Origin: an uncultured Bacteroidales bacterium
GTDB lineage: Bacteria; Bacteroidota; Bacteroidia; Bacteroidales; Paludibacteraceae
Direction: 5' to 3'
Assembly: GCA_903911085.1 (NCBI GenBank)
Contig: CAIWCC010000063.1
Location: 1 to 37,073 of the forward strand
Length of the DNA: 37,073 bases
A model generated the notes under the pieces. The model saw only the letters and a program-made list of their open reading frames with translations. It did no database searches and was not told where the DNA came from. Position 1 is the first letter of the stretch. Each line of letters begins with the position of its first letter. The position numbers were made by a program, and so were the translations under genes. Below are positions 326 through 36,879 of the stretch, in pieces.

Positions 326-550
326 TATATTGTCTTCCAATTGTTCGGCATTACGCTATAATGAATAGAGATTCTGTCCAATTAAAAGTCCGTTATAAAA
401 ATCAATTTTTTGTGGAAAAAATTAGTTTTATTAAAATATAGTATCTATCTTTGGTGTCGAATTAATAAAAAAAAATCACAAACAATCCTACCTACAATTA
501 TAATGTATTAGCAGAGGGATTATGCCGATGTATTGGGTGCTTTTTCGTTA

Positions 551-745
551 GTTTTTGGATGATTGTACCAACGAGGAGATGAACAACCAATCATCCATGG
601 ATGACTGACCCAACGAGAGGATGAACAGTCAATCATCCATGGATGACTGACCAAACTAGGAGATGAACAACTAATCATCCATGGATGATTAACCAAACGA
701 GGGGATGAACAACCAATCATCCACAGATGACGACAAAAAGGATGC
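551..745. repeat. 42-bp tandem repeat with CATG-centred palindrome (array 1)
   Basis: Four units of exactly 42 bp start at GATGAAC at 578, 620, 662 and 704; a degenerate partial unit precedes them at about 551-577. Most units carry ATCATCCATGGATGA(T/C). In the third unit the palindrome reaches 18 bp (AATCATCCATGGATGATT, 674-691). A 75-residue open frame on the minus strand reads a 14-residue repeat (core 'HPWMI.CSSP'), but this follows from the period being divisible by three, and I do not think it is a gene. The array lies upstream of a GxxExxY gene and a DUF6261 gene. Confidence 0.9.
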
Positions 746-962: not shown

Positions 963-1346
963 ATGAAACTACTACACGCAGAGATAACTGAAAAAATAAT
1001 AAAATCGTACTTTAACGTTTATAATACACTTGGTTATGGTTTTTTAGAGAAGGTTTATGAAAATGCAATGGCTGTAGAACTTCGTAAAAATGGACTTGAA
1101 GTGAGATGTCAACATCCAATTACTGTTTTATACGAAGCTGAAATAGTTGGAGAGTATTTTGCTGATATTATTGTAAACGGTGTTGTTGTAATTGAATTAA
1201 AGGCAGCAAAAGAAATTTCGGAAGTCCACGAATGCCAGTTAATCAATTACTTGAAAGCAACAAATATCGAGCTTGGTTTGCTTATGAATTTTGGAAAGGA
1301 AGCAGAATATAAACGAAAGGTATTTATGAATACTTACAAACAATGA
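963..1346 (+). CDS. GxxExxY protein, PD-(D/E)xK nuclease-like
   Basis: This 127-residue protein has the family signature G26-F-L-E29-K-V-Y32. It also has a PD-(D/E)xK-type core: D68 in 'YFADIIV', then E78-L-K80 in 'VIELKA', followed by a Q92-containing helix ('CQLINYLKA'). The family has full nuclease-like active-site residues, but I know of no firmly established biochemical role. Length is normal for the family. The gene sits alone inside 45-bp inverted repeats (855-900 and 1381-1425), so it could be the cargo or the agent of a very small mobile cassette; this is inference. It has no recognisable operon partner. Confidence 0.9.
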   Translation: MKLLHAEITEKIIKSYFNVYNTLGYGFLEKVYENAMAVELRKNGLEVRCQHPITVLYEAEIVGEYFADIIVNGVVVIELKAAKEISEVHECQLINYLKATNIELGLLMNFGKEAEYKRKVFMNTYKQ

Positions 1347-1537: not shown

Positions 1538-2263
1538 ATGAAAATTACCGATTTTAGCTTTATTCGTTTACGCAATGAAGAACATTTTCAGTTTTTTACC
1601 TCTTTCAAAGATTTAGTTTTAGTTTTTACCCCTGCGGCATTAAAAATTGATACACAGTTTAACCTCTTTCTGGCTACTTATGCCAATGAATTGGAATCGT
1701 TGAATGTGGTCAGAAAAAATGCATTTTCCGATGATTTAGTAGATGCCGATGATGAGCGCGACAATGTTTTCCGTGGCTTGAGCGATGCCGTAAAATCAGC
1801 TCTCAATCATTACAATGCCGATATACGTGCCACTGCCAAACGCTTGCAGATAGTATTGAACACCTACGGCAATTTGGCCACAAAACCTTATGATGCCGAA
1901 ACAGGAGGTTTGAATAGTTTGATAAATGACTTTACAACCACCTATAAAACCGATGTGGCAACCTTAGGACTTACAGAATGGGTGATGGAAATAGCAGCTA
2001 AAAATAAAGCTTTCGACGACCTCAAAAACAACCGTTACTCCGACGAAGCAAATAAAACCATTCTGCGCATGAAAGAAGAACGAGTAAAAACAGACGAAAT
2101 CTACCATCAAATTGTGGAACGCATCAATGCCCTGATAGTGGTGGAAGGCAGCCCTGCCTATACCGAATTTGCAGGTGAACTGAATAAACGCATCGAAGGT
2201 TACAACAATACTATTTCTATCCGACGTTCAAAAAGCAAAAAAACCACAGACATTCCCGCATAA
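1538..2263 (+). CDS. DUF6261 family protein (copy 1)
   Basis: This 241-residue, mostly helical protein has no signal peptide or membrane segment. The opening 'MKITDFSFIRLRNEEHFQFF' and the basic C-terminal 'ISIRRSKSKKT' tail match my recollection of DUF6261, a Bacteroidales family of unknown function. It shares its architecture with the protein at 35879-36670: a long helical body, a 'GLT' segment near two thirds, and an Arg/Lys-rich end. The leader is AT-rich with no Shine-Dalgarno. The basic tail could bind DNA or RNA, but that is inference. A 42-bp palindromic array lies about 0.8 kb upstream, as with the second copy. Confidence 0.75.
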   Translation: MKITDFSFIRLRNEEHFQFFTSFKDLVLVFTPAALKIDTQFNLFLATYANELESLNVVRKNAFSDDLVDADDERDNVFRGLSDAVKSALNHYNADIRATAKRLQIVLNTYGNLATKPYDAETGGLNSLINDFTTTYKTDVATLGLTEWVMEIAAKNKAFDDLKNNRYSDEANKTILRMKEERVKTDEIYHQIVERINALIVVEGSPAYTEFAGELNKRIEGYNNTISIRRSKSKKTTDIPA

Positions 2264-3187: not shown

Positions 3188-3796
3188 ATGAAGAAATATT
3201 TTATTTTTACCCTTTTATTAATGTCAATTTGTGTACATCAAGTGAAAGCACAACAAGAATTTTTTGGAAAAACCAATGGTCTTACTTTAAGCGGAAGTTC
3301 TAACTTTAATTATGGTATCATTCCTAGTGTTGATTTCTATTTTAAGGATAATCTGATTATTTCTGGTTCATTAGCAAATTATATGGGTGTCACATTATGG
3401 GGTGCAGGCGTAAATTTTCTTGTTAACGGGGGTTATGAAGATAGTTCTACAAAAGGAGTTGTTGGTCTGTCGTATGTTTCTGCTTCTAACTTGATAAATT
3501 TAATTGGAATGAATCTAGGCATTGTACAGCTGATTTTCAAAGAATCAAATTTCCCTTTATCGTTAAGTGCTATTGCTAACTTTAGTTTAAACAATACAAT
3601 ACTATCAACTCCTTCTCTCGATAATAGACAGTCGATTAACTTTACACCGGCTTTTGGTTATACTCAGGCTTTTTTTGCACATAATCCAGTTTATCCGGTT
3701 CTTGGAGTGAGTTATCATGTGATATTAGACTCTAGTAATTATCCGAACAGTGAAGGACCTCTTTTTGTACATATCGGGGTGAATATTAAACTATAA
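3188..3796 (+). CDS. Secreted or outer-membrane protein of unknown function
   Basis: A 202-residue protein with a clear Sec signal peptide ('MKKYFIFTLLLMSICVHQVKA', cleavage before Q-Q). The mature part is rich in alternating hydrophobic and polar strands and ends in 'FVHIGVNIKL', so a small beta-barrel or beta-sandwich is plausible. There are no cysteines in the mature part and no T9SS domain. I do not recognise the family. It follows repeat P copy 2 and is followed by a MITE-like element. Confidence 0.7.
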   Translation: MKKYFIFTLLLMSICVHQVKAQQEFFGKTNGLTLSGSSNFNYGIIPSVDFYFKDNLIISGSLANYMGVTLWGAGVNFLVNGGYEDSSTKGVVGLSYVSASNLINLIGMNLGIVQLIFKESNFPLSLSAIANFSLNNTILSTPSLDNRQSINFTPAFGYTQAFFAHNPVYPVLGVSYHVILDSSNYPNSEGPLFVHIGVNIKL

Positions 3797-3852
3797 AAAG
3801 CAAATAATAAAAATAATTTTTCAAAATAACTCCCTCTTTCTATATTCAAATT

Positions 3853-4095
3853 ATTGTTGTCCGATAAACTTTTTATTTTACATCTAAAAAACCGCTTCCA
3901 ATAATGCATTTAGATAATGTCGCCACGATGTGGCTAAGATTTTGTTTTTGAATATTTTCTACCATAATTTCGTCCCGATAGGACTTTTTATTAATAGCTT
4001 CAGAGAAGCGACATTATGGTAGTCAATGGATTAGAATTGCCAATAAGCTCCATCGGAGCGACATTATTTTTATTCTATTTTTATCGAACACCAAT
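3853..4095. repeat. MITE-like element, copy 1 (243 bp)
   Basis: The ends are imperfect inverted repeats, ATTGTTGTCCGATAAA (3853-3868) and TTTATCGAACACCAAT (4080-4095), matching at 14 of 16 positions. Inside are four small hairpins: GCCAC/GTGGC, GTCC/GGAC, GCTTC/GAAGC and GCTCC/GGAGC. Each hairpin is flanked by ATAATGTCG/CGACATTAT or a near variant. No transposase lies within. Related copies are at 8473-8666 and 36947-37073. Confidence 0.85.
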
Positions 4096-4173
4096 GTATT
4101 CAACTATAATGTAGAAAGCAAAGCGTTCCGTTTGTGCGGGTATTTCAGTATAGAATTTATTAAATCAAATATT

Positions 4174-6408
4174 ATGTCACATTTTAAAGTTCTTTTCTTA
4201 TCACTTTTTCTAACATTAAACTGTCATGCCCAGTTTAGTAAGCAATCTAAATGGATTACTCCTGCCACCAATAATAGTATTCAAAATCAGTGGCTTATTT
4301 TCCGAAAAAGCTACACCGTTGCAGAGCCATTAACCGAAAAATTAGTTGCTAAAATTTCTGTCGATTCTAAATACTGGCTGTACATCAATGGTGAACTGGT
4401 GGTTTTTGAAGGTCAGTTGAAACGTGGTCCCACTCCCTCCGACACGTATTACGACGAAGTTGATATTTCAAAGTACGTCCGCAAAGGTCAAAACACGGTT
4501 GCGCTGCTCGTTTGGTTTTGGGGACGTGATGGTTTTTGCCACAAAAACAGCGGCAAGGCGGGCTTGCTTTTCGATGCCACTAATTCACAAGTTTCATGGA
4601 CTTCGGACAAAACATGGAAATTTGCGCCGCATACCTCCTTTGGCGTAACCGAAAAACCATTTCCCAACTATCGGTTGCCGGAGTTTAATATTCACTACAC
4701 TGCCAATCCGAAAAACAACGGTTGGATGATGCCCGAATTCGTTGAAACAAACTTCAAGGCAAGTGTTGAAGTAGGTGCTGCTGGTTGCGCGCCTTGGAAT
4801 AAACTGTGGAAACGTCCTTTTCCGCAATGGAAAAATACGGGAATTGTGGCGTATACCAATGTGCAGCCAACTCCTTTTGTAACGGATGGCAAACCGCTGA
4901 AAATGAAGCTTCCTGCCAATTACACCGTTACGCCTTATTTCAAAATTGAAGTGCCCGATTCGGGCATGTTGATAGACATACGCACCGACAATTACAAAGG
5001 CGGAAGCGAATACAATGTTCGCACCGAGTACGTTAGCTACAAAGGCATTCAGGAATTTGAAACGCCGGGATACATGAATGGTCACGAGGTTATTTACTCC
5101 TTTCCGGCAGGTGTAAAAGTGTTCAGTCTGGGTTATCGGCGTACTTCTTTTCCCACCGAACATACCGGAAACTTTCTATGTGACGATGAGGCTTTGAATG
5201 CGCTCTGGCAAAAATCATTGAACACCATGGATGTGAATATGCGCGATGCCATTCAAGACCCTGACCGTGAGCGGTCGCAATGGTGGGGCGATGCGGTAAT
5301 TATTCTTGGCGAAATTTTCTACACTTGCGACAGCAATGGCGTGAGTGCTATCAAAAAATCCATGTCCAATTTGGTAGAATGGCAACGTGCCGATAGCTCG
5401 ATGTATTCTCCCATTCCTGCTGGTAGTTGGGGCAAGGAACTTCCGCAGCAAACGCTTGCCAGCATAGGCAAATACGGTTTTTGGAACTATTATCGTTATT
5501 CTGGTGACACGGAAATGATTCGTTACCTCTATCCTCACGTAAAAAAATATATGGATTTGTGGAAAACAGACAGCACCGGACTGGTGGTTCATAGGCTGGG
5601 CAAAACGCCAAAACTAACCAAAGATTTGTTTTGGGATTGGACGGATTGGGGAACCAATATTGATGTTGCACTTTGCGAAAATGCTTGGTATTATATGGCG
5701 CTTGAATCGGCTGCAAATATGAGCAATCTGCTGGGCAAAAAAGATGAAAGTAAGAATTACCGCCAACAAATGCAGCGTTTGAAAGCAGCTTACAACAAAA
5801 CCTATTGGAACGGAAACGCTTACCGCTCACCAGCCTACAAAGGTCAAACCGACGACCGTGGCAATGGACTTGCAGTTGTGGCCGGAATTGCTGACAAAAA
5901 GAAATGGCCTGCGATGCGTGCGTTGTTCGACACCACATTTTTGGCTGGCCCATATCTGGAAAAATACATACTTGAGTCGTATTTCATTATGAACGACGCA
6001 CAAGCTGGTATGGAACGCATGAAAAAACGCTATGAACAAATGATACAATCGCCAGTATCTACACTTTGGGAAGGCTGGAAAGTGGGCAGTGGAAGCTACG
6101 GTGGTGGTTCATACAATCACGGTTGGTCGGGTGGCCCGCTTACGCTTATGTCGCAATATATTGCGGGCATTCAACCGGCAAATGATGGTTTTTCAGAATT
6201 GATTATTCAACCACAAATGGGAAATCTGAAAAATATTACATGTACCGTTCCTCATTCGTTGGGATTAATTGTAGTAAAACTCAATAAATCAGACAATAAA
6301 CTGGATGCAGAAATCACTTTGCCCAAGGGATTAAAAGGTGTTTTTCAATGGAAAAATAAGAATATTAAACTCAAAGAAGGTTTGCAAAAAGTGAGTTTTG
6401 GTATTTAG
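4174..6408 (+). CDS. Alpha-L-rhamnosidase, GH78 family
   Basis: This secreted enzyme is predicted to release alpha-L-rhamnose. The frame is open from 4132, but ATG at 4174 starts a clean signal peptide ('MSHFKVLFLSLFLTLNCHAQ'), giving 744 residues. An N-terminal beta-domain precedes an (alpha/alpha)6 barrel. The family-type catalytic region is 'DPDRERSQWWGDA' (about residues 362-374), and the C-terminal 'LWEGW...YNHGWSGGPLTLMSQYIAGIQP' is characteristic of GH78. It is first of three + strand hydrolase genes facing the SusCD operon, so it probably acts in the periplasm or on the surface on the imported glycan. Rhamnose linkage cannot be told from sequence alone. Confidence 0.87.
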   Translation: MSHFKVLFLSLFLTLNCHAQFSKQSKWITPATNNSIQNQWLIFRKSYTVAEPLTEKLVAKISVDSKYWLYINGELVVFEGQLKRGPTPSDTYYDEVDISKYVRKGQNTVALLVWFWGRDGFCHKNSGKAGLLFDATNSQVSWTSDKTWKFAPHTSFGVTEKPFPNYRLPEFNIHYTANPKNNGWMMPEFVETNFKASVEVGAAGCAPWNKLWKRPFPQWKNTGIVAYTNVQPTPFVTDGKPLKMKLPANYTVTPYFKIEVPDSGMLIDIRTDNYKGGSEYNVRTEYVSYKGIQEFETPGYMNGHEVIYSFPAGVKVFSLGYRRTSFPTEHTGNFLCDDEALNALWQKSLNTMDVNMRDAIQDPDRERSQWWGDAVIILGEIFYTCDSNGVSAIKKSMSNLVEWQRADSSMYSPIPAGSWGKELPQQTLASIGKYGFWNYYRYSGDTEMIRYLYPHVKKYMDLWKTDSTGLVVHRLGKTPKLTKDLFWDWTDWGTNIDVALCENAWYYMALESAANMSNLLGKKDESKNYRQQMQRLKAAYNKTYWNGNAYRSPAYKGQTDDRGNGLAVVAGIADKKKWPAMRALFDTTFLAGPYLEKYILESYFIMNDAQAGMERMKKRYEQMIQSPVSTLWEGWKVGSGSYGGGSYNHGWSGGPLTLMSQYIAGIQPANDGFSELIIQPQMGNLKNITCTVPHSLGLIVVKLNKSDNKLDAEITLPKGLKGVFQWKNKNIKLKEGLQKVSFGI

Positions 6409-31752: not shown

Positions 31753-31879
31753 AATTTGTGTTTTGAAGTTCCTACTCGTAAGGTTTTTCGGAATACACCA
31801 CGTTTAATAAATGGTTTCTGTTCTCCATTTTTATTTTTTTTGTCGATAACAATAAAGCAATATTCTTTTCTTTTACCTG

Positions 31880-34556: not shown

Positions 34557-34662
34557 GCCTAACATTTGTGTATGTGGGGTTATTCCTGTATATACTATTC
34601 AAAATCACATACATATAATTTATCGGTGTGTTGGTTTTTTATTTGTTATGTTATAGATAATC
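34557..34662 (-). repeat. Repeat S, copy 2 (attC-like end motif)
   Basis: Same family as 33487-33590. On the minus strand its start-proximal end is GTTAGGC (34557-34563), which matches the GTTRRRY core of integron attC sites, 54 nt before the PorT-like gene's start. I did not find the matching RYYYAAC core, so it is only attC-like. Confidence 0.7.
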
Positions 34663-34948
34663 AACAATATATTGTTTTACACTACTTCCCATACAGTAAT
34701 TTTCTTTTGTTTGAAAAAATATTCAATTTACTAATATTAAATCTCGTCAAAGATAAATACATTTTATTAAATATGCTAATTAATTTCAAACTAAATTAAT
34801 AATGTCAAGTAATCTTTTTTTGATGGTGGAATATGTTGGTTACAATTTGGCGTTGTGGTGCATAAATATATTCAAATTGTAATAGCAACTGAATATGTTT
34901 TAGTTTATTTTGATAGGATATTTTGTATGAAAAACTGTCTAAACCACC

Positions 34949-35394
34949 TACGGCGTACATCTACGCCGTAGTGTTTGAGTAACTTTTTTGCAGCGGCGTA
35001 CATGTACAAAACTACCGATGTTAAAATATTTTGTGTCGGCGTACATGTACGCCGCTATGTTTCAAAAATATTTTTGTACTGGCGTACATGTACGCCGCAC
35101 CCGATGTTAAAAAATATTGCCTTTTGTACATGTACGCCGAGCCCGATGTTAAAATAAAACATGCTTTTGTACATGTACGCCGAGGCCGATGTTAAAAAAT
35201 ATTGCCTTTTGTACATGTACGCCGACCCCGATGTTAAAATAAAACATAGCGGCGTACATGTACGCGGGTATGTTTGAGTAACTGAAATGTACCGGCGTAC
35301 ATGTACACCGATGGCAGATGTTAAAATAAAACATGCTTTTGTACATGTACGCCATTGGTCGATGTTAAAATAAATCATGCTTTTGTACATGTAC
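34949..35394. repeat. Tandem palindrome array, about 43-bp period (array 2)
   Basis: Eleven units. Ten contain the perfect palindrome GTACATGTAC, starting at 34998, 35041, 35084, 35126, 35169, 35211, 35254, 35297, 35341 and 35385; the first unit (34955) is a variant, GTACATCTAC. Start-to-start spacing is 42-44 bp throughout. Flanks are either GGC...GCC or TTTT...AAAA, so some sites extend to 16-18-bp palindromes (35038-35053, 35081-35096, 35381-35398). Spacers repeat too, mostly as GATGTTAAAA followed by AAACATGCTTTT or ATATTGCCTTTT. Open frames on the minus strand across the array are by-products of the repeats. Between it and repeat S copy 2 (34663-34948) the DNA is AT-rich with nothing recognised. 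Confidence 0.93.
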
Positions 35395-35400
35395 AAAAAT

Positions 35401-35878
35401 GGAGAATATTAAAATAGGTTAAGTTATTGTACCTATTTTTCTACTGAAACTGTCATTATGTCGCTTAAATTTGTCAGACAGAAGTTCGTGAATTGGATAA
35501 AACTGACATTAATGGCAAATAAATTTTTTAATTTCAATATTTATTTGTTTAAATTTATTTTTAGTTACATTGCAAATATGCATTATGTATATGATATACA
35601 GTAGTGTATGACTGAAAGGTTGGATTTATTGTAAAAATATATATGTTTTGACAATGCCACAGTTAATGTTTTAGCACCATAATTGTAAAAGTATGTGTAT
35701 AGCAGTATGCTTCAAGATAAGAGAAAGCTTGTGCATATTGATTTGCGAATGGAATGTGATATTTATCAAAGTATGTTTACAGTACTAAACTTAACAGGAG
35801 GTTTGGAATACGAAAATAGTATGGGGGATGAAGTACGGACTGGCGCAAGAACTATTTTATTTTTTATAATTTTATATC
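35401..35878. other. AT-rich leader region before the second DUF6261 gene
   Basis: No convincing gene. A 63-residue frame at 35695-35886 overlaps the DUF6261 start and has no recognisable motif. The region may hold the promoter of the DUF6261 gene, but I cannot identify a clear -33/-7 pair. Confidence 0.4.
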
Positions 35879-36670
35879 ATGAGTAAAATGATTACTCCGT
35901 TGACCCTTTCTCGGATTCCTAAATTGGAATTTCCGCGTTTAGTAAAAGGGTTTTTTGAAGTTATGGACAAATATGGTCCCGATGACCATCATGTTCGAGG
36001 TATTTACAATTTGCTAGACGAGAAAAAATCTCTTCTTGGCAGTTTGAAGTACAAGTACACAAAACTGCCACAAACTGATGAGTTGAGGGTGTTGCGTGAA
36101 AAACGCAAGGATGTGCTAAAAGCCATTCAGAAACAAAAACAATCGATGATTGATGCTAATATTGCATCAATGGCTTCGAATATGAAGTTGATTATACCGT
36201 TTCTGAATGAGTATTTTGGTAATATACTTGCCAGTAGCACCGAAGGTAGAACCACACGCATCGAACAAATGTTTGTGGCTTTGGATGCTAATGTGGAATT
36301 GAAAGCTGCCTTAACAGCTGTGGGATTGACAGTTTATATTGAGGAGCTGAGAACGGTTCAGCAACAAATAAACTTAAAAATAGTGGAACGCAGAACGCAT
36401 GTTTCGGAATTGCCTAAGATGGTAACTAAGCAGGTGAAAGCTGAATTGACTGTGGCAATTACCGACTTACGAAATGCTATTGAACTTGCTGCGAAAGAGC
36501 ATCCTGAGGTGGATTATTTACCTTTGGTGAATGAAATCAATGCGCTGTTTGTACCATTTCAGGCGAAGATAAAATCGCAAAACACCCGCCGTAAAACTGC
36601 GGTTGCAGCCTCTAAAGTGGCTGATGTTGAAAAAATCAAAACCGACGACCAAGAGTTGAAAAGTGCCTAA
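35879..36670 (+). CDS. DUF6261 family protein (copy 2)
   Basis: A 263-residue helical cytoplasmic protein without signal peptide. ATG at 35879 is taken as the start; a second ATG at 35888 would give 'MITPLTLSRIPKLEFPRLVK', which also looks like the family's beginning. The central and C-terminal parts ('GLTVYIEELRTVQQQINLKI', 'YLPLVNEINALF', then 'KSQNTRRKT') mirror those of the 241-residue protein at 1538. A basic stretch near the end could bind nucleic acid. It stands 485 nt downstream of the 43-bp palindromic array and has its own terminator, so it appears monocistronic. Confidence 0.75.
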   Translation: MSKMITPLTLSRIPKLEFPRLVKGFFEVMDKYGPDDHHVRGIYNLLDEKKSLLGSLKYKYTKLPQTDELRVLREKRKDVLKAIQKQKQSMIDANIASMASNMKLIIPFLNEYFGNILASSTEGRTTRIEQMFVALDANVELKAALTAVGLTVYIEELRTVQQQINLKIVERRTHVSELPKMVTKQVKAELTVAITDLRNAIELAAKEHPEVDYLPLVNEINALFVPFQAKIKSQNTRRKTAVAASKVADVEKIKTDDQELKSA

Positions 36671-36848
36671 CCTGCATAAACCATTCTTTTATAATAAAAG
36701 ATATTAGAACAAAGAAGAAAGATAAGACGTAGTTTATCAATACTTTACCAAATTAAAAGTGTAGGTTATAAATGACGTTTATTCTATGTAAGTGATATGG
36801 TGACAAAAAATAACCGACTTTACTTGCTATAATTGATTATTAGTGTTA

Positions 36849-36879
36849 GCCCTGCATTCCTGTTTGCAGGGCTTTTTTT
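36849..36879 (+). terminator. Rho-independent terminator after DUF6261 copy 2
   Basis: GCCCTGCA (36849-36856) pairs perfectly with TGCAGGGC (36865-36872), followed by seven T. It is 178 nt after the stop codon, leaving a long 3' UTR. Confidence 0.9.

Follow-up and report, generated by a model that had tools for sequence, protein, structure and literature searches.

Genes of the DUF6261 family in Bacteroidales are firmly linked to arrays of palindromes spaced about four helical turns apart, and gene and array together form a module that is apparently undescribed. We postulate that DUF6261 binds the palindromes of its own array on double-stranded DNA, does so cooperatively, and controls its own gene; judging from sequence comparisons, we put the probability of this reading at about one half. 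Binding of the palindromes by DUF6261 is likely in itself, and we infer autoregulation from the position of the arrays.

An array of palindromes at a contig end

The window, which is the whole 37,073-nucleotide stretch that was analyzed, is an entire contig (C63) of a source genome of 6.25 Mb in 269 contigs. An earlier, sequence-only reading of the array near its right end missed three things: the DUF6261 gene linked to it, the other array of this design at 556-738, and the membership of the array in a class. The features of the right end are as follows.

34655..34950, plus strand: left flank common to the three GTACATGTAC elements of the genome (mismatches 38/290 versus C142 and 35/290 versus C120)
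34919-34925, plus strand: promoter-like TATTTTG in the left flank of the GTACATGTAC array, recognized by eye and not the consensus
34951..35394, no strand: array of 11 palindromes (10 perfect GTACATGTAC), 42 to 44 bp apart, from a scan and tandem-repeat evidence
35395..35485, plus strand: right flank common to the three GTACATGTAC elements, with similarity weakening toward its end
35879..36670, plus strand: DUF6261 gene, 263 aa, predicted all-helical (PF19775, E 2.3e-15; model mean pLDDT 92.8)
36848..36873, plus strand: terminator-like hairpin after the DUF6261 gene (9 pairs, then a T run)

Ten perfect GTACATGTAC palindromes and one GTACATCTAC variant (at 34955) span 34955-35394, with start-to-start distances of 43, 43, 43, 42, 43, 42, 43, 43, 44, and 44 bp (mean, 43.0 bp). 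A scan of the whole window for GTACATGTAC with at most one mismatch returned 15 matches, 11 of them inside the array, while the same scan of 100 dinucleotide shuffles averaged 1.02 matches and never exceeded 5, which confirms the eleven sites at 42- to 44-bp spacing that the sequence-only reading had described. Its observations that the site flanks switch between GGC/GCC and TTTT/AAAA and that the spacers fall into about two recurring types were also borne out. At 5 of the 11 sites the flanks are mixed, with one type per side, so these sites are not palindromic beyond the core. Because the spacers recur in this way, the array lacks the unique spacers of a CRISPR array, as had been argued; Pfam and NCBIfam scans of five proteins encoded beside the array revealed no cas genes.

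The proposal that all sites face the same side of the helix holds for neighboring sites and fails for the array as a whole. The mean spacing of 43.0 bp exceeds four turns of 10.5 bp by about 1 bp per step. Unless the local helix repeat is close to 10.75 bp, this excess would add up to roughly one full turn from the first site to the last. Related arrays, at 41 to 42 bp, lie closer to four turns.

The GTACATGTAC array is present twice more in the source genome, on contigs C120 and C142, and the 28 forward matches to its pair pattern are confined to these three contigs. Similarity between the three copies extends about 290 bp beyond the array on the left and about 85 bp on the right. Mismatches between them amount to 5/220 in the palindrome core, 66/658 in the rest of the array, and 73/580 in the left flank. 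No DUF6261 gene was found beside the C120 or C142 array, and the gene at 35879-36670 falls outside the common segment. Decayed palindromes at random spacing, which the sequence-only reading had named as evidence against itself, were not what we saw: the C120 and C142 copies retain both core and spacing, and at other loci a different palindrome stands at the same spacing. The exact GTACATGTAC pair is absent from 47 other genomes of the genus.

Several other repeats were observed around these elements. Part of the left flank (34716-34855) is a dispersed repeat that is also intergenic in C93, C2, C215, and other contigs, where it occurs without arrays. REP-like palindromic repeats of the GTCCCATCGGGAC type lie at the contig end (36980-37073) and also adjoin the C120 and C142 arrays. 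Several DUF6261 genes of the source genome are located at contig ends. A DUF805 cis-regulatory RNA is found at 31765-31833 on the minus strand. In another genus, locus L026 has a short 42-bp GTACATGTAC array (1454-1652) in which each unit carries a second palindrome, TAACGTTA; no DUF6261 gene is among its listed ORFs.

DUF6261 genes of the window and the source genome

The left end of the window holds a second array of the same design, also upstream of a DUF6261 gene.

422..453, plus strand: promoter-like TTAG-N20-TATCTTTG before the second array (score 9 of 10)
556..738, no strand: second array, 42 bp x 4.4, palindrome TCATCCATGGATGA, upstream of the DUF6261 gene 1538-2263
963..1346, plus strand: GxxExxY gene (TIGR04256), located between the 556-738 array and the DUF6261 gene at 1538-2263
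1538..2263, plus strand: second DUF6261 gene, 241 aa (PF19775, E 6e-44)

The two window genes score 57.3 (35879-36670) and 150.1 bits (1538-2263) against PF19775, above the Pfam curated cut-off of 27, and are members of the family. The TCATCCATGGATGA palindrome occurs at three places in the genome, all inside its own array. Relatives of the 1538-2263 gene carry the same array 79 to 89 bp upstream without a GxxExxY gene, and for this reason we regard the GxxExxY gene as probably an insertion between array and DUF6261. The two arms of an inverted repeat (861-888 and 1391-1420) bracket it, as in a small element that has been inserted. Prevotella nigrescens likewise has a GxxExxY gene upstream of DUF6261, but tblastn finds such a gene in only 1 of 136 loci.

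The source genome has ten DUF6261 matches. Tandem Repeats Finder (TRF) detected an array at seven of them, with units that differ from one another, and autocorrelation added arrays at L020 and L021; the tenth match, L022, contains an internal stop codon and has no array. For the GTACATGTAC array itself the link to DUF6261 is weaker than for the class, because it lies 484 bp from the gene (versus a median of 107 bp for 98 upstream TRF arrays) and because two copies of it are without the gene. The nearest relatives of this locus in our set also have distant arrays, at 443 bp (L025), 654 to 855 bp (L101), and 979 to 1,034 bp (L102).

Arrays at DUF6261 genes form a class

Of 145 DUF6261 matches in the genus we took 110 (mostly the higher-scoring ones); 26 more came from named Bacteroidales records, for which 36 had been collected and 10 duplicates dropped, giving 136 distinct loci. 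The named records include Prolixibacteraceae, Tannerella, Proteiniphilum, Prevotellaceae, and Alistipes. Two loci with less than 200 bp upstream were dropped, leaving 134, and protein comparisons excluded L021, whose gene runs off the contig, and L022, with its internal stop.

With thresholds that were set after seeing the data (z 6.5 and palindrome score 6), a periodic array was present within 700 bp upstream in 111 of the 134 loci, every one at a lag of 41 to 44 or 82 to 87, and a clear palindrome (score of at least 6) was present in 56 of 104 arrays called by TRF, the other 48 scoring below. Periodicity was found in 9 of 132 downstream regions (8 at the lags of the class) and in none of 134 gene bodies. 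As a control, in 400 kb of genome G016, 5 of 214 regions upstream of other ORFs of at least 200 aa were periodic, originating from 3 arrays, and 3 of 560 tiles were periodic at 41 to 43 bp, with 2 more at 21 bp. The period by TRF was 41 in 55 arrays, 42 in 45, 43 in 3, and 40 in 1. Ninety-eight of these arrays lie upstream of the gene, at a median of 107 bp before the start codon, and 6 lie downstream.

Array unit sequences mostly differ between loci and turn over fast, while the period is constant. We counted 200 site-to-site spacings of up to 60 bp in 54 palindromic arrays, and 199 of them were 41 or 42 bp. The consensus palindromes of 64 arrays had a mean score of 5.80, versus 4.00 in shuffles, and 22 of the 64 reached p 0.05 singly. 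The usual module carries a single gene: a promoter is followed by palindromes 41 to 42 bp apart, about 100 bp of intervening DNA, and the DUF6261 gene, in many cases with a terminator behind it.

The distribution of the family is patchy: DUF6261 occurs in 31 of 48 genomes of the genus, at 0 to 21 genes per genome, and in 1 of 24 genomes sampled elsewhere in the order, in other families. Linked arrays are also found in Prevotella nigrescens and at L054, whose genome belongs to a different family of Bacteroidales. In one Prevotella nigrescens locus (L235), the annotated start of the DUF6261 gene (3812-4765) overlaps the array (3697-3845), so this gene may begin further downstream than annotated. 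Arrays of similar period without DUF6261 are present in G016 (L114, L117, L127, and L129). The one at L117 (3717-4129) has 10 units of 41 bp and lies upstream of a 229-aa ORF; we considered this ORF as a DUF6261 cousin, and profile comparison gave no support. Arrays with a 21-bp period (two helical turns) also occur away from DUF6261 in G016, at L112 (17741-18104), L114 (3231-3450), and L129 (18226-18609).

Close DUF6261 relatives rarely have neighbors in common. Among 56 pairs at least 70% identical, flanking homology was found in 7, and in none on both sides (48 were testable on both sides). By eye, similarity in several pairs starts ahead of the array and ends at an inverted repeat that closely follows the stop codon.

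Half-site similarity and DUF6261 similarity

Half-site similarity climbs with DUF6261 identity, from 0.46 (0.45 in the 15 to 25% bin) to 0.56 at 45 to 55% and 0.84 at 80% or above. Across 56 arrays, the Mantel correlation was 0.260 for pairs below 70% protein identity (reached in 0 of 1,000 permutations) and 0.171 for pairs below 50% (1 of 1,000). For spacers the corresponding values were 0.013 (304 of 1,000) and -0.017 (710 of 1,000), in a comparison of unequal sensitivity, since half-sites were compared over 11 bases as the best of two arms and spacers over about 20 bases in one comparison. Whole-unit similarity was too blunt as a measure, standing at background level below 70% protein identity. 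The GTACATGTAC array of the window falls outside the half-site test because its palindrome score of 5 is under the threshold of 6.

Two pairs of close paralogs have different palindromes. The L086 and L087 proteins, from the same genome, are 98% identical, and their arrays have the same spacers and period with different palindromes; all 6 amino acid changes fall at residues 172-192, and outside nt 510-585 the genes differ at 11 nucleotides, all synonymously. This pair suggested residues 172-192 as a specificity region, which we rejected: L167 and L168, also from one genome and 93% identical, differ in their palindromes and carry 18 substitutions, none in the matching region. A residue scan for a recognition region peaked at residue 8, which was not significant after correction (123 of 1,000). 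Because L167/L168 contradict the suggestion from L086/L087, no recognition region can be named.

For the linked protein of the window, Pfam gives DUF6261 alone and NCBIfam gives nothing; neither database recognizes a DNA-binding domain. Fold searches with the predicted all-helical model gave no clear structural match.

Proposed mechanism and alternative explanations

In the mechanism that we propose, DUF6261 would be a sequence-specific binder of double-stranded DNA, with one dimer per palindrome. Dimers four helical turns apart, on nearly one face of the helix, would assemble cooperatively, and occupancy of the array would repress or tune transcription of the module itself, which we propose because the array sits between promoter and gene. 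Repeated binding of a dimeric protein, as the sequence-only reading had suggested, is the best supported interpretation, given the rigid four-turn spacing across unrelated sequences, the lack of RNA-strand bias, the tracking of protein similarity by half-sites, and the conservation of the cores. Its further suggestion of a partition or nucleoid-organizing role gains nothing here, as no observation makes either more likely than a local effect on the linked gene.

The same arrays could instead be sites for a different protein of the host, whether nucleoid-associated, partition-like, or a global regulator, with DUF6261 as the controlled gene or as another user. Such an arrangement would account for the arrays that stand without DUF6261 at C120, C142, and the four G016 loci, and would suit a protein family without a known DNA-binding domain. 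We nevertheless consider it rather unlikely: half-sites follow DUF6261 similarity below 70% identity and spacers do not, and a single protein should not need a different palindrome for each module, as is seen within the source genome. Alternatively, the arrays might act as RNA, in a transcribed leader of repeated hairpins read by DUF6261 or by the ribosome for posttranscriptional control. Promoter-like motifs precede 13 of 55 arrays (3.2 in shuffles) and occur between array and gene in 2 of 53 (1.8 in shuffles), so many arrays are probably transcribed, and the window array folds far better than its shuffles (z -10.66). However, the opposite strand folds equally well (z -10.84), and arm pairs from 39 arrays (1,393 cells) contain nearly as many A-C (44) as G-T (47) combinations and only 6 compensatory changes, a pattern with no RNA-strand bias, though two-sided arm changes numbered 18 versus 9 expected. 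The mixed flanks at 5 of the 11 window sites would leave a very short hairpin, the rigid 41- to 42-bp spacing fits DNA turns better, and six TRF arrays are found on the downstream side of the gene. What is under selection appears to be the sequence of double-stranded DNA, and we judge control through RNA unlikely.

Least probable to us is that these are tandem or mobile repeats with no binding protein, whose regularity is maintained by unequal crossing-over and which are only carried along with DUF6261; we regard this as very improbable. Tandem repeats are common in these genomes, close relatives seldom have the same neighbors, and unit sequence changes fast, all of which speaks for such repeats. 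Against them stand a 41- to 42-bp period that stays constant across unrelated units and cores conserved between the three GTACATGTAC copies; the excess of palindromes over shuffles also speaks against them, but only about a third of the arrays (22/64) reach it singly.

Binding by DUF6261 could be taken a step further. More tentatively, and with less confidence than in binding and self-control, we speculate that DUF6261 may be a new kind of sequence-specific DNA-binding protein, all-helical and with no known DNA-binding domain, that builds cooperative four-turn arrays at its own gene. Protein and palindromes would co-diverge after duplication, so that up to 21 copies in a genome would act as relocating single-gene modules with mostly separate DNA addresses, a set of protein-DNA pairs that evolves in nature. 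Palindromes from the same genome usually differ; the separation is incomplete, because L171 and L175 in genome G040 have the same palindrome. We also looked for mutual separation of modules within a genome, and the 62 same-genome pairs were not clearly more different than others.

DUF6261 is named in one paper (PMC10376253), and a search of the literature for "PF19775" found no mention; nor did we find a description of such palindromic arrays, judged by title or the start of the abstract. A family with no function assigned so far would gain a testable role, and for each gene the linked array gives a candidate target sequence. Should DUF6261 read the palindromes, the nearly identical proteins of L086/L087 and L167/L168 are ready-made tests of specificity change, and the family would supply DNA-binding proteins that differ in their targets. 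If true, the proposal would also account for a class of regular intergenic repeats in Bacteroidales on which our literature searches turned up nothing.

Comparison with known systems

Plasmid iterons are several equally spaced sites beside the gene of the Rep initiator that binds them. DUF6261 arrays are likewise equally spaced candidate sites beside the gene of a putative binder. They differ in that their units are 41 to 44 bp and mostly palindromic, and neither Pfam nor NCBIfam finds a Rep initiator domain in the window's linked protein. In the ParB-parS and ParR-parC systems, repeated or palindromic sites are bound cooperatively and adjoin the gene of the binder. The DUF6261 arrays share the repeated palindromic sites beside a putative binder's gene, but no partition ATPase was found among the scanned neighbors of the window array (DUF6261, an outer membrane barrel, a thioredoxin-like protein, a PH domain protein, and one without a family), and genomes of the genus carry anywhere from no DUF6261 gene to 21.

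RAYTs are transposases associated with REP palindromes. There, as with DUF6261, palindromes (for REP, see PMC3733652) are tied to a gene family, with many versions per genome. The linked gene of the window is not a transposase of the RAYT (Y1) type, its only Pfam match being DUF6261, and the TCATCCATGGATGA palindrome is restricted to its own array. Controller proteins of restriction-modification systems are autoregulated through symmetric sites in the control region of their own gene. Symmetric sites in the gene's presumed control region are what we observe at DUF6261 as well (for controller proteins, see PMC8053105). In contrast to controller operators, DUF6261 arrays are longer and rigidly spaced at four turns, and the protein is predicted to be all-helical, with no recognized DNA-binding domain.
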